From: a virus
IMG/VR virus record: IMGVR_UViG_3300025732_000298
Location: 1-21,891 of that record
Length of the DNA stretch: 21,891 nucleotides
Strand: one strand, 5' to 3'
This document shows positions 3,319 through 16,397 of the stretch, piece by piece (position 1 is the stretch's first letter; the number at the start of each line of letters is the position of its first letter). A program made the position numbers and the translations under genes. A model generated the notes under the pieces. The model ran no database searches. It worked only from the letters and a program-made list of their open reading frames with translations, and was not told the DNA's origin.

Positions 3319-4560
3319 ATGAGCAATAACCTGCTTACCATCTCCATGATCACCAACGAAGCGTTGATGGTCCTGGAAAACGAATTGGTGTTCTCGGACG
3401 CCGTAACCCGTGAATATGACGATCAGTTCGCCGTGACCGGTGCAAAGATTGGCGCAACGTTGAACGTTCGCCGTCCTGCCCGTTTTATCGGCACGACCGG
3501 TCCTGCTCTGAACGTTGAAGATTTCAACGAAACCAGTGTTCCCGTGACTCTGAGCACTCAATTCCACGTTGACACCCAGTTCACCACTCAAGACCTGGCT
3601 CTGTCTCTGGATATGTTCTCTGATCGCGTGCTGAAGCCTGCTGTTGCTGCCGTAGCCAACAAGATTGACTATGACGGTTTGAGCATGGCTAAACTGGCAA
3701 CCGCCAACATCGTTGGTACTGCTGGCACGCCCCCCACCTCGCTGCTGACCTACCTGAACGCTGCTGCGTATCTGGATTCGGAAGGCGCTCCCCGCGATGG
3801 TCGCCGTTCGATGATTGTTGAGCCGTTCACCGGTGCAACGATTGTTGACAGCCTGAAAGGTCTGTTCAACCCGAGCGACAAAATTGCCGAGCAATACAAG
3901 CGTGGCCTGATGGGTCGTGACTCTGCTGGCCTGTACTGGCGTATGGACCAGAACGTTGTGCCCCAGACGTTCGGTAACTACTCTGTTGGCCTGCAAACCA
4001 ACACGTCAACCTTCACGGGTTCGATCAGCACTGGTTGGGCACAAACCTCCACGATCACCATTGCAACTGCTTCTAGCACTGCAACGATCAACGCAGGGGA
4101 CGTGATCCAGATCGCTAACGTCTATGCGGTTAACCCCCAGAACCGTCAAGCCTACGGTGGCAACAAACTGCGTAATTTCGTGGTTCAGAGCACCGCTAAC
4201 CTGACGACCGGCGGCGTTGCTGTCACCGTTTCTCCTGCCATCATCACTGGTGGTCAGTTCCAGAACGTGACCGTTACCGCTACCAGCGCAACTGCTACGG
4301 TGACCCCGTTCGCTGACAACGGAGAAGTCTCCCCGCAGAACATTATGCTGCACCGCAATGCCTTCACGTTGGCTACCGCCGATTTGGAACTGCCTGATGG
4401 TGTCCATTTCGCTGGTCGCGCTTCCGACAAGGAACTCGGTCTGTCCATGCGTGTGGTTCGCCAGTACACGATCAACAACGATTCGATCCCGACTCGTATT
4501 GATGTGCTGTATGGCTGGGCTCCGCTGTACCCCGAACTTGCCTGCCGTGTCGCATCTTAA
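3319..4560 (+). CDS. Major coat protein, P22 gp5-like
   Basis: 413 residues, close to P22 coat (430). It builds the icosahedral shell with the HK97-type fold. The N-terminal part (NNLLTISMITNEALMVLENE, then GATLNVRRPARF) and the middle (DLALSLDMFSDRVLKPAVAAVANKID) match the gp5-like coat family. Residues about 228-338 are Thr/Ser/Val-rich beta strands, in the place where P22 coat carries its inserted beta-barrel domain, which stabilises the subunit and helps size the shell. The C-terminus (IDVLYGWAPLYPELACRV) is typical of the family. AAGGA at 3308-3312 is the ribosome binding site. Base composition is about 55% GC (66 of 120 bases in 4441-4560). No cleavage site is evident. Confidence 0.93.
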   Translation: MSNNLLTISMITNEALMVLENELVFSDAVTREYDDQFAVTGAKIGATLNVRRPARFIGTTGPALNVEDFNETSVPVTLSTQFHVDTQFTTQDLALSLDMFSDRVLKPAVAAVANKIDYDGLSMAKLATANIVGTAGTPPTSLLTYLNAAAYLDSEGAPRDGRRSMIVEPFTGATIVDSLKGLFNPSDKIAEQYKRGLMGRDSAGLYWRMDQNVVPQTFGNYSVGLQTNTSTFTGSISTGWAQTSTITIATASSTATINAGDVIQIANVYAVNPQNRQAYGGNKLRNFVVQSTANLTTGGVAVTVSPAIITGGQFQNVTVTATSATATVTPFADNGEVSPQNIMLHRNAFTLATADLELPDGVHFAGRASDKELGLSMRVVRQYTINNDSIPTRIDVLYGWAPLYPELACRVAS

Positions 4561-4813: not shown

Positions 4814-4828
4814 TTCTTGAGTGAAATA

Positions 4829-4863
4829 GCCGCCCTGCTTACCCGTGGGGCGGCTTTTCTTTT
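4829..4863 (+). terminator. Intrinsic terminator closing the head operon
   Basis: Perfect 7-base-pair GC stem GCCGCCC (4829-4835) / GGGCGGC (4848-4854) with a 12-base loop, followed by TTTTCTTTT (4855-4863). It starts 16 bases after the stop of the head-fibre-like gene and ends just before the next ribosome binding site. It separates highly expressed head genes from the accessory cassette; downstream genes then need read-through, antitermination or their own promoter. The loop holds CTTACCCGTG, also present at 2350-2359. Confidence 0.88.
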
Positions 4864-4872
4864 GGAGACACC

Positions 4873-5532
4873 ATGCACGTTATGATCGCCATCCCCGCCT
4901 ACACCGGCGTGGTTCACATGGCTACGATGCGCTCGTTGATGACCGACACAATAGAACTAATACGGCGCGGCGACACTTTTACATTGGTTGACGACATAGG
5001 GAATGCCCTAATAGCCGACTCAAGAGGCGTAATTGCCACCAAATTCTGGGAATCAGACGCAGATTGTCTGGTTTTCATTGATTCCGATGTGACCTGGCAA
5101 GCCGGGGCGCTCCTAAAGTTAGTAGACGCACCAGTAGACCTGTGTGCTGGGGTCTATCCCAACCGAAAAGACCCGATTGCCTATCCCTTACATTATCTTG
5201 ACAGACCACAATTGTGGGCAGATCCCGACACGGGGCTTTTGGAGGTTAAATCCGTAGCCACAGGGTTTTTGAAGCTGTCTAGGAATTGTATTGGTAAGAT
5301 GATTCAGGCTTACCCTGAAAAGCACTATTACACGGCTGAACGAGACAAGCAGTTTTATCCCCTTTTTGACCACGTTTTTGAGGACGGGTATAAATGGGGG
5401 GAGGATTACAGCTTCTGCATCCGTTGGGGGAAAATCGGGGGGCAGGTCTGGGTTGACCCCGAAATTGCGATGGGCCACGTTGGATATAAAGTTTTCCAGG
5501 GCCATCTAGGAAATTGGCTCAGAAACAGATAA
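4873..5532 (+). CDS. GT-A fold glycosyltransferase
   Basis: 219 residues, soluble, no signal or membrane segment. The N-terminus MHVMIAIPAYTG is the nucleotide-sugar-binding first strand of GT-A enzymes. CLVFIDSDVTW (residues 65-75) supplies the DxD metal site (D70-S-D72). GEDYSFCIRWGKIGGQVWVD (176-195) resembles the ED acceptor/base motif, with H202 in MGHVG as possible last metal ligand. The length matches small phage and bacterial family-2-like transferases. GGAG at 4864-4867 is the ribosome binding site. It is the first gene after the terminator and precedes small structural-type genes and fibres. Likely substrates are a virion protein, host surface glycan or DNA base; which one cannot be told. 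Catalysis is inferred from motifs; sugar and acceptor are unknown. Confidence 0.8.
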   Translation: MHVMIAIPAYTGVVHMATMRSLMTDTIELIRRGDTFTLVDDIGNALIADSRGVIATKFWESDADCLVFIDSDVTWQAGALLKLVDAPVDLCAGVYPNRKDPIAYPLHYLDRPQLWADPDTGLLEVKSVATGFLKLSRNCIGKMIQAYPEKHYYTAERDKQFYPLFDHVFEDGYKWGEDYSFCIRWGKIGGQVWVDPEIAMGHVGYKVFQGHLGNWLRNR

Positions 5533-5561: not shown

Positions 5562-5825
5562 ATGTCGAATTACGCTCAGATTTCAGCAACCACGCTGATC
5601 AAGAACTCTCAGGGCAAGATCAAGGGCATCATGGTCAGTGCCGCCTCTGGCTCTCCCTCAATCACCATTTATGACCAGCAAACCGCTGGAACGGCAATTA
5701 AAGTGATTGACACCTTTACCCCTGTTGCTGCCACAAACTACAACTTTTATGATGGAATCAACTGCAAAAACGGCATTTATGTCGTGATTGCGAACACGGT
5801 AAGCTGCACTGTTTACTATGAGTGA
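5562..5825 (+). CDS. Small beta-rich phage protein, possible decoration protein
   Basis: 87 residues with alternating beta-type strands (GKIKGIMVSAASGSPSITIY, then KVIDTFTPVAATNYNF, GIYVVIANTVSCTVYYE), probably one beta sandwich. Short proteins of this shape are common in phage structural regions, but their role is not established. I chose ATG 5562, which has AAAGGAA at 5550-5556; an in-frame start at 5514 would overlap the glycosyltransferase and lacks such a site. The ribosome binding site is part of a perfect 12-base palindrome CCTTTGCAAAGG (5543-5554). The stop overlaps the region of the next start. Could be a capsid decoration protein, a fibre accessory or the acceptor of the neighbouring transferase; all are inference. 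Confidence 0.7.
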   Translation: MSNYAQISATTLIKNSQGKIKGIMVSAASGSPSITIYDQQTAGTAIKVIDTFTPVAATNYNFYDGINCKNGIYVVIANTVSCTVYYE

Positions 5826-5827
5826 AC

Positions 5828-8311
5828 ATGGCGAATCCAGCAGACACTCAAACGACTAACATCGTCCCGGTTCAGGGCGTTTTTGATCCTGAACCAACAT
5901 TTGCCCTGCAATACTTTGTCGGGCCTGCTGGAACGCCTTTCCTGCCCCCTGTTGACCCCAATATTGACGGGGCAACAATCACCAATTCGACCATCAACAG
6001 TTCGATAATTGGTGGATCTGTCCCCGCTGCCGCTTATTTCACCAGTATCAGCACAACAACCGGACAAATCTCAACCTTACCAACGGCTGACAACGACATT
6101 GCTAACAAGCAATATGTCGATTCTGTTGCCCAAGGGTTGGACATTAAAGCGGCTTGTTCGTACACAACCACCGGGAACATTACCCTCACCGGGCTGACAA
6201 CTCAGGCTGGTGGCGATTGGGGATCAACCCTGACCGCAGGCACTCGGATTCTGGTTAAGAATCAAGCCGCCCCCGCCGAAAACGGCATTTATGCGGCATC
6301 TGCAACGGGATGGACACGCACTTCAGACATGAATGTTTGGGCAGAAGTCCCCTCCGCATTCACGTTTATCCAGCAAGGCGTAACCCTGTCAGATACCGGT
6401 TGGGTTTGTACGGCTGACCCAGGTGGCACGATCAACGTCACCGCAATGCCTTGGACGCAGTTTTCAGGAGCTGGGACGTATCTCGCAGGCAACGGCCTTC
6501 AGATTGTTGGTAACACTTTCTCCGTCAAGCCCAACGGCACAAGCCTAGATGCTAGTTCTAGTGGCCTCAAAATCTCCGACACTTACGCAGGACAGACCTC
6601 GATCACGACTCTGGGCACGATTGGGACGGGAACCTGGCAGGGTAGCACCATTGGTGTGGCTTATGGTGGAACCGGTGCGGCGACCTTTTCTGCTGGTTAT
6701 GTAAAGGCCAACGGGACGACTGCATTCACCACGGTTGCCACAATCCCCAACACGGACATTACCGGCCTGGGTACTATGTCCACCCAAGATGCCAACAACG
6801 TAGCCATTACAGGCGGTTCTGCGGCTCTAGGAACGCTTAAAACCCTTGGCTTGACCGGATACCTATACGGTAACGATACAAACGCTGTAACGGCCTCTAC
6901 AACGATTCCCAACACTGCCATCACGGGTTTGGGAACCATGTCCACTCAGAACGCCAGTGCTGTGGCGATTACGGGTGGAACCGCTACCGGCCTCACTAAC
7001 CTGGGCGCTGATTACCTGCAATTGAACGTTGCGGCGGGTGCGACTTATGCCTACGGCAAACTCTACTGGAGTTCTACCGGTACGCTGAACGTTGGCCTTG
7101 ATGGTAGTGCAAGTCTTGTAATGCCTGTGGGTGAGGTTCTGTATACCTACGGAAAAGCATCTTCTAACATCACCATCGGTCAGGTTGTCATTAAAACCGG
7201 CGTGGTTGGCGCATCTGGCGTGATTCAGATGGGGCCATCAACCGCAGGAATTACTGACGGAAATGCGATTGTCGGCATTGCCTGCGAATCAATTGCCTCT
7301 GGTAGTTTTGGGCGGGTTGTGAATCATGGCGTTGTGCGCGGATTTAACCTTTCTGCTTACAACAACAACGACACGCTTTGGTATGACCCCGCGGGGGGCG
7401 GTGCATTTACGGCTACAAAGCCCTCTGCACCCAACCTGAAGGCTGAAGTTGGGATTGTGATCAACGCTGGCTCTGGAGGCTCGGGGTCGATGTTTGTGTC
7501 CCTGTTTCCAGGCTCACAGCTTGGTGGCACTGACCAAAACGTTCAGATCACGGGAACGCCAGCAGACGGATCATTGCTTCAATACGATGCGACATTGCAG
7601 TATTGGAAGAACGTTGCATCCAGTACGGTTTCGGTCGGAACTGCAAGCAATCTGGCTGGTGGTGGCGCTGGTTATATTCCCTATCAGTCTGGTGCTGGCG
7701 CTACATCTTTTCTCGGTGTTGGCACTACCGGGCAAGTCCTGACCTCTAATGGCTCAAGCGCCCCGACCTGGACGACTCCCACGGCTTACGCCACGGTAAC
7801 GGACGACACCACCACCAACTCGACCCGGTATCCGCTGTTTGCCAACCAGACAACGGGCAACCTGACCACAAACTACGTCAGTTCGACCAAGTACCAATTT
7901 AACCCGTCCACCGGAGAATTGAGTGCTACAGGGTTCACCGGATCTGGCGCAAACCTGACCAACCTGCCTGCTGGACAGCTATCAGGCACGATTCCAAGCG
8001 CAGTTCTGGGTAATTCCACGGTCTACATTGGAACCACGGCAATTCTGCTGAATCGCTCAAGCGCCAGCCAATCCCTGACCGGGGTGAGCATTGACGGATC
8101 GGCAGGATCTGCAACCACGGCAACCACGGCGACAAACGCCACCAATGTTGCGGTGACTGACAACACCACGACTAATTCGGACTATTACCCGACTTATGTC
8201 ACCAACACCACGGGCAATTTGCCTATTACTGTGTCATCCACTAAACTTAAATACAACCCATCCACAGGCGTTTTGACCGCGACAGGTGGCGTTGCTGGAG
8301 GTAATTTCTGA
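5828..8311 (+). CDS. Large repeat-rich tail fibre
   Basis: 827 residues, Gly/Thr/Ser/Asn-rich and almost without Lys-rich or helical parts, as in trimeric fibres. From the N-terminus: a short attachment region; ATITNSTINSSIIGGSVPAA fibre motif (about 45-65); ANKQYVDSV (about 92), a frequent start of fibre shafts; a beta domain with ILVKNQAAPAENGIY (about 140-155); GTWQGSTIGVAYGGTGA; a tandem unit with IPNTDITGLGTMSTQ / IPNTAITGLGTMSTQ spaced 53 residues; and two copies of a ~46-residue unit (about 657-702 and 776-822). It ends right after the second copy, with no S74 chaperone or obvious receptor tip. ATG 5828 was preferred; an in-frame GTG at 5822 adds two residues. Probably a virion adhesin; the target is unknown. 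Confidence 0.85.
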   Translation: MANPADTQTTNIVPVQGVFDPEPTFALQYFVGPAGTPFLPPVDPNIDGATITNSTINSSIIGGSVPAAAYFTSISTTTGQISTLPTADNDIANKQYVDSVAQGLDIKAACSYTTTGNITLTGLTTQAGGDWGSTLTAGTRILVKNQAAPAENGIYAASATGWTRTSDMNVWAEVPSAFTFIQQGVTLSDTGWVCTADPGGTINVTAMPWTQFSGAGTYLAGNGLQIVGNTFSVKPNGTSLDASSSGLKISDTYAGQTSITTLGTIGTGTWQGSTIGVAYGGTGAATFSAGYVKANGTTAFTTVATIPNTDITGLGTMSTQDANNVAITGGSAALGTLKTLGLTGYLYGNDTNAVTASTTIPNTAITGLGTMSTQNASAVAITGGTATGLTNLGADYLQLNVAAGATYAYGKLYWSSTGTLNVGLDGSASLVMPVGEVLYTYGKASSNITIGQVVIKTGVVGASGVIQMGPSTAGITDGNAIVGIACESIASGSFGRVVNHGVVRGFNLSAYNNNDTLWYDPAGGGAFTATKPSAPNLKAEVGIVINAGSGGSGSMFVSLFPGSQLGGTDQNVQITGTPADGSLLQYDATLQYWKNVASSTVSVGTASNLAGGGAGYIPYQSGAGATSFLGVGTTGQVLTSNGSSAPTWTTPTAYATVTDDTTTNSTRYPLFANQTTGNLTTNYVSSTKYQFNPSTGELSATGFTGSGANLTNLPAGQLSGTIPSAVLGNSTVYIGTTAILLNRSSASQSLTGVSIDGSAGSATTATTATNATNVAVTDNTTTNSDYYPTYVTNTTGNLPITVSSTKLKYNPSTGVLTATGGVAGGNF

Positions 8312-8664
8312 TGGACTGGAAAATTCTCGACATTGAGGCTGAAGGCGACTTGATCACCAAGGCCCGTTATCTTGTCACCGCTGTTAACGAAGTGACGGAA
8401 GTCTCCACGGAAGGCTGGTGGCACTTCCAAAATCCAGCCCTTGTGATCCCTTTCACGGACGTTAAAGAAGCTGATGTAATTGCCTGGATTGACGCAGAAG
8501 CCTCTCAGCCAACCAGTTACACCGACATTGATGGCAACGTTCAAACGGACACCAGCCACAAGATTACGGCGCGTCTTGAGGAGCAATTAACGGCATTGAC
8601 GCAACAAAAACAGAAGAAGGTAATCCCGCCTTGGTTGCCTCAAACCTTCACGCCAAGCATTTAA
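8311..8664 (+). CDS. Small fibre-linked phage protein (assembly-factor-like)
   Basis: 117 residues; the start ATG overlaps the fibre stop by one base (TGATG) with an ideal GGAGGT at 8297-8302, so translation is coupled to the fibre. The sequence has an N-terminal beta part (MDWKILDIEAEGDLITKARY, EGWWHF), an acidic patch with VKEADVIAWID, a helix (LEEQLTALTQQKQKK) and ends in a Pro/Trp tail (PPWLP). This layout resembles a family of short conserved phage proteins found after tail fibre genes, for which a fibre assembly or chaperone role is often guessed. The one-base coupling supports a partnership with the fibre; direct function is not shown by sequence. Confidence 0.7.
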   Translation: MDWKILDIEAEGDLITKARYLVTAVNEVTEVSTEGWWHFQNPALVIPFTDVKEADVIAWIDAEASQPTSYTDIDGNVQTDTSHKITARLEEQLTALTQQKQKKVIPPWLPQTFTPSI

Positions 8665-8673
8665 GGAAAGAAT

Positions 8674-10635
8674 ATGGCAGTCAATCTCTCTCCTGTTGGC
8701 GGCGTTGCAGCACAATTCTTTGACAATGACGGGAATGTCTTGTCAGGCGGCAAGATTTACACCTACGCTGCTGGATCTTCTACGCCTCAGACAACCTACA
8801 CCACAGGCGCTGGCAATATAGCTCATAGCAACCCGATCATTCTTGATTCGGCTGGGCGTGTGCCTACGGGTGAAATTTGGCTGACGGATGGTCTTTCCTA
8901 CAAAATCGTCATTAAAGATGCCAATGACACGCTGATTGGCACTTACGACAACATCGTTGGCATTAACTCTAACTTTATCAATTTCCTAGCCGAGCAAGAG
9001 ATTCAGACTGCAACAGCAGGACAGACTGTTTTTACGTTAACAACCACCTCTTATCAGCCTGGCACTAACACTCTGTCTGTGTTTGTTGACGGAGTGAACC
9101 AATATGGTCCTGGCGCTCAATACGCTTACACCGAGACAAGTTCCACGGTAGTGACGTTTACTTCTGGCCTTCATGTTGGCGCAGAAGTTAAGTTCACGAC
9201 TGCCCAGACTCTAAGTGGCGGGGCAATTGATTCATCTCAAGTTGTTTACGATCCTCCTTTTGCAAATTCTGTTTCAACTAATGTTGAAGCAAAACTTTCA
9301 CAAACCGTTAGTGTGATTGATTTTGGTGCTGTTGGAGATGGAACGACTGACGACTATCAAGCGTTTCAAGATGCAATTGACGCGTTGCCGGTTAGTGGTG
9401 GGACAATCATTATTCCCGCTACTACAACAAACGAATGGGTTATTTCGCAGACGTTAAATGTGCGGAAAAAAGTGCATTTGGTCGGTCAAATTGCAAAGGG
9501 AACTGGAACAAAAGGCACAACGCTTATTTTTCCCGCTGACACTTCCGGTATTGTTTTTAACTCTTACAACACTTCTCTCTATCAAACCGTTGCGGCTGAT
9601 CCGTTGTTACCTGGCGCTTATGGCTCCATTCTTGAAAACGTTGCGTTGTATGGAGACAAGGCAGGAAGTAGTACGGCGGCTGATGGTGTTGTAGTGCGTT
9701 GCACAATGGAATGCCGAGGCGTTGCTGCTCGTAACTTTTATCGTTACGGTTTCCGAATTTACGCAGATTTAGGCGCAGGCGGTTCAATTGAAGGCGATGC
9801 AAACCAGTGGGCGTTGTATCGTTGTGACGCTATTTTGAACGGTGATCATGGTGTTTATGTCAACGGTGATGACGCAAACACAGGCGTTGCCACAAAAGTG
9901 TTTTCTCAGTTAAACGGCGGCTATGGCATTTATGACAATTCGCTAATTGGCAACACTTATATTGGGTGCGACACGGTTGGTAACACGTTAGGTTCAATGT
10001 GGGCTGATCGCGCATCTGCTGCAAATACCGTAATTGGTCTTTGGGAAGATGATGGTTCTGCCACTTCTCAATTTGGTGGTGTTAATACGATTATTGGTGG
10101 CAACGCTGGTAATCCCTCAACATCAAGTAGCGCGTTTTCAATGTTTCGCGGAATCGCCAAACAAGCGCCATATGTTTATCTAAATAATCGAGGGTCTGAA
10201 GAAGTATCTGGTCAACTTGGAGCAAACTATAACGACACAAGCATGACTGCTTTTGCGTTTGGTGCGTTGACTTCAGAAACCATTGCAACGGCTTGGAAAT
10301 TTCAATTTGATGCAACGGAACAAGCATGGTTCTTGCAATATGCGGCCAGCGCTGCTTTTACGCCAATTGCGTATTTGAACTCTGCTGCATCGTTGTACAC
10401 ACTCAAAGGGTTTACTGGCCCAGTGTTCCGAAACGGCTATGCGGTTCGCAAGACCGGCAACATCAATACGTCTAAAGTGCGGATGTTGGATAGCGCCGCA
10501 CCGACCACAGGCACTTGGGCTGTCGGCGACATTGTTTATAACGACACGCCAACGGCTGGAGGATATATTGGTTGGGTTTGCGTAACCGCTGGAACCCCAG
10601 GCACATGGAAAACTTTTGGGCCAATTTCGGTATAA
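8674..10635 (+). CDS. Tailspike with P22-like head-binding front and beta-helix
   Basis: 653 residues. Residues about 1-100 (GGKIYTYAAGSSTPQTTYT, then SNPIILDSAGRVPTGEIWL) resemble the virion-binding N-terminal domain of P22-type tailspikes. Residues about 108-180 form a beta domain (TATAGQTVFTLTTT, NTLSVFVDGVNQ). From 212, VSVIDFGAVGDGTTDD and GGTIIIPA mark the start of a pectate-lyase-3-type right-handed beta-helix, the fold of phage spikes that bind and often cut polysaccharide. The C-terminus (TGTWAVGDIVYNDTPTAGGY, then GWVCVTAGTPGTWKTFGP) is a recurring spike module. Catalytic acids cannot be picked reliably. Ribosome binding site AAGGAAAG follows the previous stop. Depolymerase activity is an inference; the spike assignment is strong. 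Confidence 0.88.
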   Translation: MAVNLSPVGGVAAQFFDNDGNVLSGGKIYTYAAGSSTPQTTYTTGAGNIAHSNPIILDSAGRVPTGEIWLTDGLSYKIVIKDANDTLIGTYDNIVGINSNFINFLAEQEIQTATAGQTVFTLTTTSYQPGTNTLSVFVDGVNQYGPGAQYAYTETSSTVVTFTSGLHVGAEVKFTTAQTLSGGAIDSSQVVYDPPFANSVSTNVEAKLSQTVSVIDFGAVGDGTTDDYQAFQDAIDALPVSGGTIIIPATTTNEWVISQTLNVRKKVHLVGQIAKGTGTKGTTLIFPADTSGIVFNSYNTSLYQTVAADPLLPGAYGSILENVALYGDKAGSSTAADGVVVRCTMECRGVAARNFYRYGFRIYADLGAGGSIEGDANQWALYRCDAILNGDHGVYVNGDDANTGVATKVFSQLNGGYGIYDNSLIGNTYIGCDTVGNTLGSMWADRASAANTVIGLWEDDGSATSQFGGVNTIIGGNAGNPSTSSSAFSMFRGIAKQAPYVYLNNRGSEEVSGQLGANYNDTSMTAFAFGALTSETIATAWKFQFDATEQAWFLQYAASAAFTPIAYLNSAASLYTLKGFTGPVFRNGYAVRKTGNINTSKVRMLDSAAPTTGTWAVGDIVYNDTPTAGGYIGWVCVTAGTPGTWKTFGPISV

Positions 10636-10644
10636 AGGCATAGC

Positions 10645-11868
10645 ATGGCACAAACAGGTTACACCCCAATCCTGATTTATAGTAGCACGACTGCTAGTCA
10701 GGCTCCGTCTGCCTCAAATTTGACTAACTCTACGTTGGGGTCTGAACTTGCCATCAATATTACTGACGGAAAATTGTTCTACAAAGACAACGGTGGCTCT
10801 GTTCAGGTGATTGGATGGAAAGTTGTGCCTGCAACCGCTGGTGGCACAGGACAAACATCTTATGCTGTAGGCGATCTGCTTTATGCAGACACAACCACAA
10901 GCCTTGCAAAACTTGCTGATGTAGCAACTGGAAATGCGCTTATTTCTGGTGGCGTTTCAACTGCCCCAAGCTGGGGGAAAATTGGCCTCACAACGCACGT
11001 TTCAGGAACTTTGGGTGTTGGTAATGGCGGCACAGGAACAGCTACCGCATTCACGGCTGGATCGGTTGTATTTGCTGGCGCATCGGGTGTTTATACCGAA
11101 AGCAACGCAAACTTTTTCTATGATGCAACTAACAACCGATTAGGGTTGGGAACTGCAACACCCTCACAACGCCTGCATGTGAACTCTAGCGGCGCTGTTG
11201 CGATGAGAATTTCCCGAAGCGGGGGAATTGTTGCAAACAGTTGTATTGAGTATTACAACGGCACACAAACCTGGAACATCGGCGTTTCGGGAACAGATTT
11301 TTTTGGCATTAATTACAACAATGCTGCTATTGATACTGCATTGTTCCGTGTGTCATCGGCTGGCGATATAACTGTTTCAAGTGGAAACATCATCCCAAGC
11401 ACAGCCGCCAAAGGCATCAACTTTACCGCCAACACTGCCGCAGCGGGAAAAACCAGCCAGTTGCTGAATTGGTACGAGGAAGGCACTTGGACACCAACCA
11501 TCATTGGTTCTAGTACTAATCCAACCTACACAACTTCTACGGCAAGAGCCATATATACAAGAATTGGCCGAGTTGTTTACATTGAGTTTTTGATTATCGT
11601 TAGTGGCGTTACTGCTCAAGGAACTGGTGGAATTGGCGTTGGCGGGCTTCCGTTCGATCCTAGCGTATCTTGGACAGGCGCTGGATATAGCGCCAACATT
11701 GGAGTTGTCTATAACGATGTTTGGGATGTAAACGTGCGAAATGGATACGCACGTTCAGGAAGCATAATTTATTTTGCAACAAACGCTGTTACGCAAACAG
11801 ATTACACATATGCGACTGCGGTTTTAAGCACCGGCTACTTTTCGGGTAGTGGGTTCTACATGATTTGA
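10645..11868 (+). CDS. Tail fibre with C-terminal WTPT-type domain
   Basis: 407 residues. The N-terminus (TPILIYSSTTASQAPSASNL, then ELAINITDGKLFYKD) is a recurrent opening of phage fibres. Gly-rich shaft segments follow (ATAGGTGQTSYAVGDLLYAD, LGVGNGGTGT). RLGLGTATPSQRLHVNSSG (about 170-190) is the knot-like motif that often precedes fibre tips. NWYEEGTWTPTI leads into a beta-rich C-terminal domain (about 280-407) in place of an S74 self-cleaving chaperone. That domain resembles the end of the next gene product. The stop codon and ribosome binding site are fused at the 5' junction (TAAAGG, 10633-10638). GC content is lower than in the head genes. Probable receptor-binding protein. Confidence 0.83.
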   Translation: MAQTGYTPILIYSSTTASQAPSASNLTNSTLGSELAINITDGKLFYKDNGGSVQVIGWKVVPATAGGTGQTSYAVGDLLYADTTTSLAKLADVATGNALISGGVSTAPSWGKIGLTTHVSGTLGVGNGGTGTATAFTAGSVVFAGASGVYTESNANFFYDATNNRLGLGTATPSQRLHVNSSGAVAMRISRSGGIVANSCIEYYNGTQTWNIGVSGTDFFGINYNNAAIDTALFRVSSAGDITVSSGNIIPSTAAKGINFTANTAAAGKTSQLLNWYEEGTWTPTIIGSSTNPTYTTSTARAIYTRIGRVVYIEFLIIVSGVTAQGTGGIGVGGLPFDPSVSWTGAGYSANIGVVYNDVWDVNVRNGYARSGSIIYFATNAVTQTDYTYATAVLSTGYFSGSGFYMI

Positions 11869-11879
11869 TGAGGTAAAAA

Positions 11880-13313
11880 ATGAGCCTGACAAAAGTTTCC
11901 TATTCTATGATTGAAGGCGCATACTTGAATGTGCTGGATTATGGCGCTTACAATGATGGCACAAATGCAACCGCAACTACCGCAGCCATTCAAGCGGCGA
12001 TTGATGATCTTGGGCTTGCGGGTGGCGTTTTATATTTTCCTGTTGGAACTTACAGCATCAATTCCACGATTACAACGCCTACGGATTCGTATGGCATTTG
12101 TATGATTGGATCGGGTTTAAGAACAACATTTTTGCAGTGGACGGGTGGCGCGTCACCAATGCTTGTTGCCCATCAAGGAACAGATAACTTTACCTTGCAA
12201 TCATTTGCATTAAACAACACGGGAACTGGAACAGTGGGTGTTCAGTTAAACGGTATTCGATGCAACATCATTGATGTGTTTACAAACTCAGATGTTGCAT
12301 GGTCTGATTCTGTCTTTTCTACTGTTTCAACAGTTTCCAGTTATAACTACAAAGTTATTTTTGACAATGTAAATTTGTTTTGTAGAGATAACGCTGCGGG
12401 GCAAGGGGACGTTGCGATAAGACTTGGATCAGGGCATTCGGTTACTATTCAAAATTCAATGTTTTCGGGTTTTGCTAGTGCGGCTGTTTACAGAGACATT
12501 ACAAACGGTTCAGACTTAAATGGACTAAGCATTACAGGAACTCGATTTGAGGCATTTTCAGGAACATCAACTGGTTACCCTGGGTCAAGCACTGCTGTTG
12601 GCGTTTTTTTGCAGAATGTAGAAGGCGTGAGCATTACAGGTTGTAATTTTGAAATGTCTGGCGATCAAGTTGGATCAACAAACCAACGCGCCATTTATAT
12701 GGGTAATAGGTCTTATGGGGTTAATATTAGCGGAAACTATTTTACAGCAAATGGTCAAGTTCAATATTTAATTTATATTGGACAGAATGATACAGAAGCA
12801 ATAACAATTGACAGTAATTATTTTTATCGAACAAATATTGCTGGAATCGCCGCAGTTGGAACTTTGGCATTGGCAAAAGCGCAAATCGGAAATAATATAG
12901 CCCAAGCAGGCTCGGCTGTAATTGTGGACAACACGTTTACACCAACATTGACAATTGGTGGGGCTTCAACCGGCATAACGTATAGTGTTCAAAAAGCAAG
13001 ATTTACAAGATACGGAAAAAATTTAACGTATGAAGTCGCAATAACTTTGACAAGCAAAGGCGCACTGACGGGTGCAGTAAGAATTGCTGGTTTGCCACTT
13101 GGCGCAGATTCCACAATTACGCCCGCCGTTCCTGATTTTATTGGTAGTGTATTTGCTCAAAATCTTGGATCATCATTAAGTCTTGTTTCTTTTATGTCAT
13201 CAAGCGGATCGCAAGATATTCGTTTGTATAAAAATTCAGGCACGGAATTGCAAGACACAGACATAACAAACACAACAATATTGGTGGCAAGTGTTACGGT
13301 TCAAACCGCATAA
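11880..13313 (+). CDS. Beta-helix tailspike, AT-rich gene
   Basis: 477 residues. The start SLTKVSYSMIEGAYLNVLDY with YGAYNDGTNATAT (21-33), then GGVLYFPVGTYSI (48-60), is the typical entry into a pectate-lyase-3-like right-handed beta-helix; many rungs follow (for example VSITGCNFEMSG and VNISGNYFTANG). There is no head-binding domain, so it must attach by its short N-terminus or through another fibre. Residues about 352-477 form a domain beginning TFTPTLTIGG that parallels the end of the preceding fibre. The gene is strikingly AT-rich: 30 of 120 bases are G or C in 12721-12840, against 66 of 120 at the end of the coat gene, suggesting recent acquisition. GAGG (11869-11873 region) precedes ATG 11880. 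Glycan binding or cleavage is likely but not demonstrated. Confidence 0.84.
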   Translation: MSLTKVSYSMIEGAYLNVLDYGAYNDGTNATATTAAIQAAIDDLGLAGGVLYFPVGTYSINSTITTPTDSYGICMIGSGLRTTFLQWTGGASPMLVAHQGTDNFTLQSFALNNTGTGTVGVQLNGIRCNIIDVFTNSDVAWSDSVFSTVSTVSSYNYKVIFDNVNLFCRDNAAGQGDVAIRLGSGHSVTIQNSMFSGFASAAVYRDITNGSDLNGLSITGTRFEAFSGTSTGYPGSSTAVGVFLQNVEGVSITGCNFEMSGDQVGSTNQRAIYMGNRSYGVNISGNYFTANGQVQYLIYIGQNDTEAITIDSNYFYRTNIAGIAAVGTLALAKAQIGNNIAQAGSAVIVDNTFTPTLTIGGASTGITYSVQKARFTRYGKNLTYEVAITLTSKGALTGAVRIAGLPLGADSTITPAVPDFIGSVFAQNLGSSLSLVSFMSSSGSQDIRLYKNSGTELQDTDITNTTILVASVTVQTA

Positions 13314-13322
13314 AGGCGCAAA

Positions 13323-14291
13323 ATGACTAAGCCAATTGACATCATCACCCGCGCCATGAAGGACATTGGCGCTGTTGCCGCTGGTGAAGTGCCAACGGCT
13401 GACGAAGCGCAGGACGGTCTAGATCTGCTCAACGGGATGATTGACCAATGGTCCAATGAGTCCATGATGGTCTTTTACCGGACCGAGATCGTGTTTAACA
13501 CTGTCCAGAACACGGTTCAGTACACCCTTGGTCCTGGCGGATCGGTTGGGGCTACCTTTGTTGGATCTGTCTCTGGAAACGTCCTGACGGTGACCTCGAT
13601 CACTTCTGGTGCGGTTACTATGGGCATGACCCTGACCGGTACGGGAATCACCGCAGGAACCCGAATTGTGGCGTTTGAGTCTGGGGCTGGTGGTAACGTA
13701 AATGAGGCGGGAACGTACTTGCTCAGTAAGTACATGACTGCTGCCAGCACCACGATCAATGCTTACTATGAGCGTCCTCTGACCATCGAATCGGCCTTTG
13801 TGCGGGTCGCAACGATGCAGGGCGGGTCTAATATTGCCGGTGGATATTTGGACTATCCTGTGGCGATTCTGAGCCTTGAGGAGTATGAGGGCATTGGTAT
13901 CAAGTCCCTGAATGGGCCTTGGGCGAAAGCTGTCTACTACCAACCGTCCGAGATTCTGGGAACGGTGTACTGTTATCCCAATCCTTCCCAGGGCGAGTTG
14001 CATCTGTTCACGCAGACGATCTTCCGCAACTTCCAAACCCTGACGGACGATATTCAATTCCCGCAAGGGTATGACATGGCTCTACGCTGGTGTCTTGCCG
14101 AGCGTCTGATGCCCATGTACGGGAAAACCAACACCACCCAGATTGCCATGATCAACGGCTTGGCGGCTCAGTCCAAGGCCACGATTAAGCGGATCAATAT
14201 GCAGCCTCCCAAGGTTGCGCGTTATCCTGATTCGCTTATGATGGGTCGGGCTAAAGACGCTGGGTTTATCATGGATGGCGGATTCCGCTGA
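13323..14291 (+). CDS. Tail accessory factor, P22 gp4-like, with extra beta module
   Basis: 322 residues, about twice the 166 of P22 gp4. This protein seals the portal after packaging and makes the platform for the gp10-like protein. The N-terminus (IDIITRAMKDIGAVAAGEVPTADEAQDGLDLLNGMIDQW, residues 5-43) is the helical family signature. Residues about 74-148 are an added beta module: GSVSGNVLTVTSITSG, MGMTLTGTGITAGTRI and AGTYLLSKYMTAASTTINA, which resembles a repeat-like module common in phage structural proteins. Family-type sequence resumes with YYERPLTIESAFVRV and the helical FPQGYDMALRWCLAERLMP. No gap from the spike gene; TAAAGG (13311-13316) fuses stop and ribosome binding site. Codon use returns to GC-richer values. 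In a few P22 relatives gp4 has also been linked to cell wall hydrolysis; no such site is visible here. Confidence 0.82.
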   Translation: MTKPIDIITRAMKDIGAVAAGEVPTADEAQDGLDLLNGMIDQWSNESMMVFYRTEIVFNTVQNTVQYTLGPGGSVGATFVGSVSGNVLTVTSITSGAVTMGMTLTGTGITAGTRIVAFESGAGGNVNEAGTYLLSKYMTAASTTINAYYERPLTIESAFVRVATMQGGSNIAGGYLDYPVAILSLEEYEGIGIKSLNGPWAKAVYYQPSEILGTVYCYPNPSQGELHLFTQTIFRNFQTLTDDIQFPQGYDMALRWCLAERLMPMYGKTNTTQIAMINGLAAQSKATIKRINMQPPKVARYPDSLMMGRAKDAGFIMDGGFR

Positions 14292-14307: not shown

Positions 14308-14319
14308 ATTTAGCTAAAT
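14308..14319. repeat. 12-base palindrome at the gp10-like start
   Basis: ATTTAGCTAAAT is a perfect palindrome that touches the ribosome binding site GAGGA (14304-14308) on one side and the start ATG (14318-14320) on the other. It could be chance or a weak translational control site. Confidence 0.3.
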
Positions 14320-15790
14320 GGACTTTGGTTTTGTCGGACTATCCTATACGTCGCCCTCGATCTACCAGGACGATCAGGAGGCCATCAATTTCTTTGCTGA
14401 AATCGACCCTACCAAAGCGCAGGGCGAGAGGGGCGTTGTCGCCCTATATCCGACTCCTGGCCTTGAGACTCAAGTAACGCTGGACGTTGATACCCCCATT
14501 CGTGGGATGTTTACCATGTCCGGTGGCGACTATTTTGTCGCTGTGTCTGGATCATCTCTGTACAAAGTCAACACCAGCATGGTTGCCACAAAAGTGGGCA
14601 CTTTGACGACTTCTACGGGGCCGGTGTCTATCTCTGACAACCAGACTTCTACGGGTCTAATCGCCTTCCTAGCTGATGGCGTGAACCGCTATACCTACAA
14701 CTTTGGAACCAATACCTTCACGACTCTGCCCTCAACGGATGGTCCTTGGCAGGGCGCAAACGTGGTGGATTCGGTTGACGGATATAACATCTACAACCAG
14801 CCTGGAACCTACAACTGGGCGGTTACTGACCTTAACTCTGGTCTAAGTACTAATGCGTACTACGGCTCTGCCAACGGCTATCCTGATGACATTGTGAGCC
14901 TGATTGTTGACCGCCGGCAGGTTTATCTGCTCAAGGAAGTCACCACGGAAGTCTGGACAGATGTGGGTAATCTTATTACTGGATTGACAGGGTTCCCCTT
15001 CCAGCGTGTGCCGGGAACATTGATGCAGTCCGGTTGTGGTGCTCCGTTCTCAGTGGCTCGATTTGGTGAATCTTTTGCTTTGGTTGCCAAAGATACCCGA
15101 GGCGATGCAACCATCGAAATGATGGATGGGTACTCTTTCAAGCGCATTTCTACCCATGCCGTGGAGCAATCCCTGTTGGGTCAGGTCACCAGCGATGCGA
15201 TTGCCTACACCTATCAGATTGAAGGCCACGAAATGTATGTGGTCACTTTTCCGTCAATCGGAAATGGCCTCACATGGGTTTATGACCTCACCACGCAATC
15301 CTGGCATAAGTGGTTGTATTGGAACTCCCAAACTGCCCAATATGAGCGTCATCGGTCTAATTGTGGGTGCTTCTTCCAACAGATGTATCTGGTCGGTGAC
15401 TACGAAAACGGCAAGATTTACAGCCTGGAGAATGAGCAGTACACGGACAACGGTGAAACGATCCGCAGATTGCGCCGAGCCAAGCACCTGACGACAGACT
15501 TACAGAGACAGTTTTTCGAGTCTTTCCAGATTCAATTCCAGCCTGGTGTTGGATTGAACTTGGGTCAGGGTCAGAATCCCCAGGCCATGCTGCGCTGGTC
15601 AAATGACGGTGGTTCTACTTGGTCGAATGAGCATTGGGTTTCCATTGGTAAGCAGGGAAACTACGCAAACCGGGCGCTCTGGAGGCGTTTGGGCTGGTCT
15701 AGGGACAGAATCTTTGAGGTTGTGGTCACCGATCCTATAAAGGCGGTGATTGTCTCTGCTGAACTTAAAGCCTCGTCAGGGGACAACTGA
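14318..15790 (+). CDS. Tail accessory factor / DNA stabilisation protein, P22 gp10-like
   Basis: 490 residues, near the 472 of P22 gp10. It forms a hexameric beta-propeller hub under the gp4-like ring and carries tailspikes and needle. The start GFVGLSYTSPSIYQDDQEAI then NFFAEIDPTKAQGERG is the family opening; repeated propeller-type segments follow (LIAFLADGVNRYTYN, VDRRQVYLLKEVTTEVW, LTWVYDLTTQSWHKW). The C-terminal MLRWSNDGGSTWSNEHWVSI and RRLGWSRDRIFEVVVTDP is also characteristic. It begins after GAGGA at 14304-14308 and overlaps the next gene by one base (TGATG at 15788-15792). Position right after the gp4-like gene is as in P22. Confidence 0.9.
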   Translation: MDFGFVGLSYTSPSIYQDDQEAINFFAEIDPTKAQGERGVVALYPTPGLETQVTLDVDTPIRGMFTMSGGDYFVAVSGSSLYKVNTSMVATKVGTLTTSTGPVSISDNQTSTGLIAFLADGVNRYTYNFGTNTFTTLPSTDGPWQGANVVDSVDGYNIYNQPGTYNWAVTDLNSGLSTNAYYGSANGYPDDIVSLIVDRRQVYLLKEVTTEVWTDVGNLITGLTGFPFQRVPGTLMQSGCGAPFSVARFGESFALVAKDTRGDATIEMMDGYSFKRISTHAVEQSLLGQVTSDAIAYTYQIEGHEMYVVTFPSIGNGLTWVYDLTTQSWHKWLYWNSQTAQYERHRSNCGCFFQQMYLVGDYENGKIYSLENEQYTDNGETIRRLRRAKHLTTDLQRQFFESFQIQFQPGVGLNLGQGQNPQAMLRWSNDGGSTWSNEHWVSIGKQGNYANRALWRRLGWSRDRIFEVVVTDPIKAVIVSAELKASSGDN

Positions 15791-16038
15791 TGGCGACTGC
15801 CCCGAATACTTCTGGCATTCGGATTCCGATCAACCAGTTCGTTAATCCTGACACTGGCAGACCGACTCAAGAATGGTTGTTATGGTTGCTGAATCCTCAG
15901 ACAATCAGTTACACGACCCAGTATGTCATCATCAATGGCGGGGTAATCAACAACACCACCATTGGCCTAACAACCCCGGCTGCTGGTAAGTTCACGGATT
16001 TGACCGCCTTGAACGGGATTGGTGGAGGAACATTTTGA
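15790..16038 (+). CDS. 82-residue fibre-motif protein in the tail-needle slot
   Basis: 82 residues. It has a short N-terminal part with FVNPDTGRPTQEWLLWLLNP (17-36), a pattern seen at the start of small phage tail proteins, then a beta stretch GGVINNTTIGLTTPAAGKFT, a trimeric-fibre motif also present near the start of the large fibre (NSSIIGGSVPAAAYFT). It ends LTALNGIGGGTF, similar to the fibre end LTATGGVAGGNF. Overlaps the gp10-like stop by one base; AGGGGA at 15778-15783 is the ribosome binding site. In P22 this place is held by the 233-residue tail needle gp26, but no long coiled coil exists here, so it is at most a reduced functional stand-in. Function unknown. Confidence 0.75.
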   Translation: MATAPNTSGIRIPINQFVNPDTGRPTQEWLLWLLNPQTISYTTQYVIINGGVINNTTIGLTTPAAGKFTDLTALNGIGGGTF

Positions 16039-16397
16039 ACCTGGCAGAACTATTCCAGCAAAAAGAAGGTCAATTTGACGTTGACCTAGGGACAACTCAT
16101 CACTTTTCCGATGGTTTGTATGCCAAGGAAATGATGATTCCTAAAGGATTTATTGCTGGAAGCCATGCCCACAATTACAGCCATTTCAGCATCCTAGCGA
16201 AAGGGCGTGTAATTTTGAGGACAGATGAATACAATAAAGAATATGCGGCTCCTGCCTGCATAGAGATCAAAGCTGGTGTCCATCACATGATTGAAGCACT
16301 GGAAGATTCTGCATGGTTTTGTATTCATGCCACAACGGAAACCGATCCCGAAAAAGTGGATGAAGTATTGATCGAAAGGAAAATATCATGCCGTTAG
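16035..16397 (+). CDS. Small cupin-domain protein (TTG start)
   Basis: 120 residues, single cupin barrel. GSHAHNYSHFSILAKG (42-57) gives motif 1 with H44, H46 and H50; PACIEIKAGVHHMIEAL (73-89) gives motif 2 with H83/H84, a plausible four-histidine metal site. It opens with TTG at 16035-16037, overlapping the previous TGA (16036-16038), preceded by a near-perfect GGAGGA (16024-16029) at a spacing of five bases. The next in-frame ATG would delete 32 residues, including the first strands. The end overlaps the next gene by 10 bases. Cupins bind metal and range from enzymes (dioxygenases, isomerases, sugar epimerase relatives) to ligand binders. The role in the virion or the infected cell is unknown; a link with sugar chemistry is speculative. 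Confidence 0.78.
   Translation: MNLAELFQQKEGQFDVDLGTTHHFSDGLYAKEMMIPKGFIAGSHAHNYSHFSILAKGRVILRTDEYNKEYAAPACIEIKAGVHHMIEALEDSAWFCIHATTETDPEKVDEVLIERKISCR

Follow-up and report, generated by a model that had tools for sequence, protein, structure and literature searches.

We analysed a 21,891-nucleotide stretch of viral DNA (IMG/VR virus record IMGVR_UViG_3300025732_000298, positions 1 to 21,891; hereafter the window) in which a block of spike and fibre genes lies between the coat protein gene and the gp4-like adaptor gene of a P22-like, short-tailed freshwater phage. Five cassette open reading frames (ORFs), all intact, ordered and on the + strand, fill positions 5828-13313 (~7.5 kilobases, kb), and the genes flanking them are identified by profile matches, which bears out the preliminary description of a host-recognition cassette at this place. 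Upstream are the portal, scaffold and coat genes, followed by genes for proteins of 77, 219 and 87 amino acids (aa), and downstream are the gp4-like and gp10-like genes, an 82-aa stub, a 120-aa short-tail-fibre-like protein (phrog_12032) and the ejection proteins. The features used below are as follows.

3319..4560, + strand: coat protein (P22 gp5-like), left landmark; P22_CoatProtein, Pfam PF11651, E = 2e-33; phrog_283
5562..5825, + strand: 87-aa gene, left border of the cassette, retained in the cassette-less relatives L019 and L022-L025
5828..8311, + strand: 827-aa fibre-like protein with a FibN front, a COG5301-like domain (residues ~70-300), a repeat body and a conserved end
8311..8664, + strand: 117-aa DUF7936 companion (PF25590)
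8674..10635, + strand: 653-aa spike with a head-binding domain (residues 1-96), a DOCK domain (~107-175) and a beta-helix from ~205
8992..9198, + strand: DOCK domain (residues 107-175 of the 653-aa spike), predicted socket for the second spike
10645..11868, + strand: 407-aa fibre with an MtdN-type front (MAQTGYTPILIYSS...SELAINITDGKLFYKD), the front conserved and the remainder variable
11880..13313, + strand: 477-aa beta-helix spike without an anchor domain; Pfam PF12708, E = 6e-11
11880..11924, + strand: N-terminal peptide MSLTKVSYSMIEGAY of the 477-aa spike, predicted from co-occurrence to be the plug for DOCK
13323..14291, + strand: gp4-like adaptor, right landmark; SU10_adaptor, phrog_12985
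14318..15790, + strand: gp10-like nozzle or head closure protein; phrog_578, Phage_stabilise
15790..16038, + strand: 82-aa stub at the position of P22 gp26; in other relatives, the first ~42 residues of the stub serve as the anchor of long fibres

Approximately 140 related DNA stretches were compared with the window. The relatives (denoted by L and a number) were drawn from two scans, with gp10 and gp4 as queries, which gave more than 100 loci, and the GenBank relatives used were MW202674, MW202520, PBR31, P26218 and DSL-LC05. L071, which has two gp4/gp10 sets on one contig and is probably a chimeric assembly, was left out of the counts.

Profile and model comparisons agree that the 653-aa spike begins with a genuine head-binding domain of the P22 type (~100 aa) and that, as proposed earlier, it is the only cassette protein with such a front. 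Residues 1-96 match the tailspike heads 7eeq (E = 6e-15) and 9vyg, and an AlphaFold model of the domain (predicted local distance difference test score, pLDDT, 86) gave a Foldseek probability of 1.00 to Pam1/Pan3, P22 (2vky, 1lkt, 9jg6) and Sf6, the tail machines of the cyanophages Pam1 and Pan3 (7eeq, 9vyg) being the closest solved cases. A beta-helix follows (Pfam PF12708, E = 1.5e-7, residues 212-299), and DOCK sits between it and the anchor, which is the layout that defines anchor-branched receptor-binding systems. The P22/Sf6 tailspikes (Lederbergvirus) likewise consist of this head-binding fold and then a beta-helix, in virions with similar coat, portal, gp4 and gp10 proteins; however, the one tailspike of P22 is encoded far away from coat and gp4, whereas here the spikes lie between these two genes, DOCK is inserted and a second spike is present, so that the Lederbergvirus order of coat, gp4, gp10 and gp26 without intervening adhesins is broken by the cassette. 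The nearest cultured relatives, Xanthomonas phage PBR31 and Rhodoferax phage P26218 (coat 57% and 36% identical, gp10 39% each), have coat and gp4 without an adhesin cassette, and the tail spike of PBR31 is placed after the internal proteins, unlike the arrangement in the window.

DOCK (~70 aa) is variably present among the relatives, and its presence coincides with that of a separate spike gene whose product begins with one of two peptides, M[SA]LTKVSYSMI (TKV class) or M..L[IV]P[KR][FYI] (PKF class). Strict counts were made on 57 lineage representatives, with changes and independent contrasts mapped on the gp10 tree: 32 have both elements, 25 have neither and none has only one (Fisher p = 1e-16), each element changed 13 times, and all 11 independent contrasts were concordant (p = 0.001). 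The peptide-bearing spike, which lacks an anchor, was found in 32/32 DOCK loci with a complete gap. When loci beyond these representatives were added and scored where their flanks were full, DOCK occurred 59 times with the peptide and once without it, and the peptide was seen in 0/28 loci lacking DOCK, which encode other adhesins. Moreover, the subtypes correspond, DOCK S1 being paired with TKV in 32/32 cases, S2 with PKF in 15/15, and F with TKV in 36 cases or PKF in 3. Bare adaptors of 159-172 aa, consisting of the head-binding domain and DOCK only, are common, and the peptide spike is always present where such a locus is complete. DOCK and the plug peptide are thus statistically coupled, and the subtype of the one predicts that of the other. 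Since the 477-aa spike of the window carries the plug peptide, it is predicted to be plugged into the 653-aa spike through LTKVSYSMI and DOCK, giving a two-spike branched tail, a reading to which we assign a probability of about 0.72.

Similarity searches with DOCK gave matches of varying strength. Its profile weakly matched tailspike chains 7rfo/7rej of phage CBA120 (E = 0.18) and matched capsule depolymerase 9k4a in tandem (residues 116-170 and 188-246, E = 1e-5); T4gp10-like branching regions lie at that place in such depolymerases (Latka 2019, PMC6872550). Antibody light chains in the PDB that matched the DOCK-S1 profile were discarded as composition noise. A tblastn search of GenBank phages with the DOCK of the window alone gave no match, although the adaptor version as query did, and a search of a paper collection turned up no mention of LTKVSYSMI.

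A branched apparatus with several adhesins, as suggested earlier, is likely, but not every one of the five products need be a tail adhesin. The 827-aa protein (ATG start; a GTG 6 bases upstream would give 829 aa) may instead be a capsid decoration or head fibre, in which case the cassette would be a mixed capsid and tail surface module. It matches phrog_2647 'head decoration' (E = 3e-23), a profile of its residues 1-300 matches PDB 9nx3 'capsid decoration protein' in the COG5301-like region (residues 112-252, ~140 residues, E = 2e-7), and its gene lies on the coat side of the cassette; on the other hand, the protein has long fibre-type repeats, relatives are annotated as tail fibre and database labels are not equal to function. 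An AlphaFold model of its N-terminal 300 residues (pLDDT 42) was not used. On balance we lean somewhat against a place on the capsid. The start of the 117-aa gene overlaps the 827-aa stop (TGATG), and the two genes are probably translationally coupled because the last codons of the first contain the Shine-Dalgarno sequence GGAGGT of the second. The 117-aa product is a small protein of the DUF7936 family, turns up repeatedly in these cassettes and is probably accessory; a family search beyond DUF7936 and a PDB search with it were both empty. The 827-aa and 82-aa genes both have the Shine-Dalgarno sequence of the next, overlapping gene within their final codons (8280-8315 and 16010-16040, respectively), with a conserved GG[TN]F end as the result. 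A docking tail formed by the GG[TN]F C-terminus that the 827-aa protein and the stub share was considered and dropped, as the underlying DNA is the Shine-Dalgarno sequence of the next overlapping gene (GGAGG...TTCTGATG).

A second pairing as strict as that of DOCK and peptide, and less clearly one of docking, links the 407-aa fibre to the stub behind gp10. In some relatives a stub of 75-122 aa is encoded at this position and in others a long fibre, whose length ranges from 139 aa (cut) to 844 aa; only the first ~42 residues are common to both. Across the 59 tree rows with both regions known, a stub accompanies an MtdN fibre in the coat-gp4 gap and a long fibre accompanies none; s82C stubs and MtdN fibres were both present in 40 cases, both absent in 23 and mixed in 0. 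On the gp10 tree, the states of MtdN and long stub were opposite in 9/9 independent contrasts (p = 0.004), and FibN against long stub gave ~7.6/8 (p ~0.008); L018, L074 and L082 separate FibN from MtdN, and it is MtdN that tracks the stub. This pattern is what would be expected if the stub were a tail-tip anchor on which the 407-aa fibre docks in place of a one-piece long fibre. However, MW202484 and MW202545 have MtdN fibres, and the 16-kb stretches of them that were examined yielded no homologue of the stub, on account of which docking on the stub is offered as a hypothesis only, and distant relatives (e.g., L143 and L144) have a 75-aa stub without MtdN, though the C-terminus differs in the stubs seen. 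A second socket and plug of this kind is conceivable, with the odds modestly against it. In the same two phages (L250 and L251), which are otherwise different, the proteins with MtdN-type fronts are annotated as endo-N-acetylneuraminidase; the module is shared outside the lineage. The 120-aa short-tail-fibre-like protein next to the stub (16035-16397) is cupin-looking, has a TTG start overlapping the stop of the stub, and occurs in relatives as one of two very different versions, ~70-78% or ~30% identical.

Several points count against plugging of the 477-aa spike into DOCK. Three loci pair an F-scored DOCK with a PKF peptide (the F and S2 scores being near-tied); L179, which has full flanks, has DOCK without a recognisable peptide spike, and L180 and L208, which were not scored as full-flank loci, are probably similar; sequence similarity ties DOCK only weakly to T4gp10-type branching domains; the pattern used for the peptide was loosened once so as to include variants first noticed by eye in DOCK loci, the loosened pattern then being run on all loci; and the window is an incomplete IMG/VR contig, beyond which more adhesins may lie. 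In addition, co-occurrence could come from co-transfer of neighbouring genes: DOCK and the peptide spike belong to one cassette, the different genome slots described below clearly show transfer in blocks, and the 477-aa spike might attach directly to gp4 or gp10 with DOCK serving as a spacer. We consider this unlikely. In the window, as is usual, the MtdN fibre gene stands between the two genes, and in PKF loci, L005 and L240 the spike comes ahead of the adaptor, in the opposite order, yet the coupling persists over 11 independent changes; the subtypes match; and adaptors consisting of only a head-binding domain and DOCK make little sense without a partner. The pair also recurs in similar order in the distant DSL-LC05 and L196/L197, in another slot of the genome.

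In most close relatives, adhesin genes fill 3.7-9.1 kb of the gap between coat and gp4; the arrangement is thus not peculiar to this phage, and its position is a lineage trait. Position alone is also not new, because adhesin genes interspersed with gp4 and gp10 homologues have already been noted in PhiM5 (PMC10386132). In L019, L022-L025 and L091 the gap is only ~0.8 kb, and the adhesins lie instead behind gp10, ahead of the gene for the short tail fibre; the region between portal and scaffold houses a head-binding/DOCK protein together with a peptide spike in DSL-LC05, L196 and L197. The cassette is therefore mobile, with at least three alternative slots (coat-gp4, gp10-gp7 and portal-scaffold), and its boundary is precise (87-aa gene, cassette, gp4), since in L019 and L022-L025 the coat gene is followed by genes for 140 and 87 aa and then by gp4, the gap measuring 0.80-0.84 kb. 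An additional ORF of ~150-210 aa between gp4 and gp10 in L004, L006, L009, L020, L029, L050 and L082 marks a fourth variable spot, and the gp4 homologues of L048, L050, L051, L053-L055, L059 and L067 are 395 aa long and contain an insertion that the 322-aa form lacks. To the left of the cassette, the terminator at 4828-4855 (11 pairs, 8 GC) is the strongest among 16 terminator-like matches in a scan that overall gave no excess over shuffled sequences. The 219-aa gene at 4873-5532 (phrog_1574, a function-less profile) has an FIDSDV stretch of glycosyltransferase-like look, and among the gp10-query relatives tested it was found only in L008 (71%).

Content behaves differently from position. In L004, whose gp4 is 96% identical, the counterpart of the 653-aa spike is ~90% identical over the first 100 residues, with no similarity detectable past residue ~255, the 407-aa fibre retains its front and pieces of the body, and the 477-aa spike retains little beyond its front. 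Across the representatives, BLAST coverage of both spikes falls from ~100% at the front to <10% in the body, and gp4 and gp10 remain at ~100% throughout. The combination of conserved fronts with replaced distal parts is the hallmark of receptor-binding parts being exchanged while their mounts stay conserved. That the cassette is an ordinary fixed lineage trait, with the same order and orthologous fibres in all relatives, is very improbable, as this holds only for the coat-gp4 placement and gene fronts common to most close relatives and is contradicted for content by distal parts that are not orthologous even next to 96-97% identical gp4 (L004, L086 and L087), by cassettes with and without FibN/MtdN alternating 8-10 times on the tree, and by the relatives whose gap is empty.

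Plugging of the second spike into the first suggests how such a tail may be built. The 653-aa spike would be held on the tail by its P22-type head-binding domain and the 477-aa spike would plug by its N-terminal peptide into DOCK, so that each tail position would bear two beta-helix spikes of differing receptor or depolymerase specificity, whose bodies, judging by their Pect-lyase fold, may differ in the surface glycans that they bind or cleave. Among relatives, the anchor-bearing spike is often reduced to an adaptor of ~165 aa with head-binding domain and DOCK, which would carry only the plugged spike, and the distal domains are exchanged freely since the fronts, sockets and plugs are retained. 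The 407-aa fibre would be a further adhesin, possibly, on weaker grounds, attached via the stub behind gp10, and the 827-aa protein a further fibre or a capsid decoration. More broadly, there may be a general plug-and-socket code in which anchors (the P22-type head-binding domain and the gp10-adjacent stub) are either fused to an adhesin or exist as bare sockets that take a matching separate adhesin, with at least two classes of socket and plug, and in which switching between fused and plugged forms and between slots, at least about ten times, rebuilds the tail and leaves the tail core untouched; we regard this wider proposal as tentative, at slightly less than even odds.

Similar designs are known from the anchor-branched systems of G7C, K1-5/SP6 and Klebsiella KP32-type phages (Latka 2019, PMC6872550), in which anchor and branching domain are likewise combined in one protein, a second receptor-binding protein without an anchor has a short conserved N-terminal peptide, and adaptors with only anchor and branch exist too. 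Unlike in those systems, the anchor in the window is of the P22 type, branching would rely on one DOCK of ~70 aa whose subtypes correspond to two families of peptides, and socket and plug together have their own cassette position and have been gained and lost many times inside one lineage of uncultivated freshwater phages. The branched tailspikes TSP1-4 of CBA120, with T4gp10-like domains, also have hub spikes that carry docking domains, but on a myovirus baseplate. Behind the docking rule proposed here stand numerous natural gains and losses, not a single example, and as a rule of sequence it predicts when a P22-type phage that has never been grown has a second, plugged-on spike and on which protein. 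Anchor-branched receptor systems, which have chiefly been reported from phages of enterobacteria, would thus also exist in freshwater phages, with an anchor of the P22 type.

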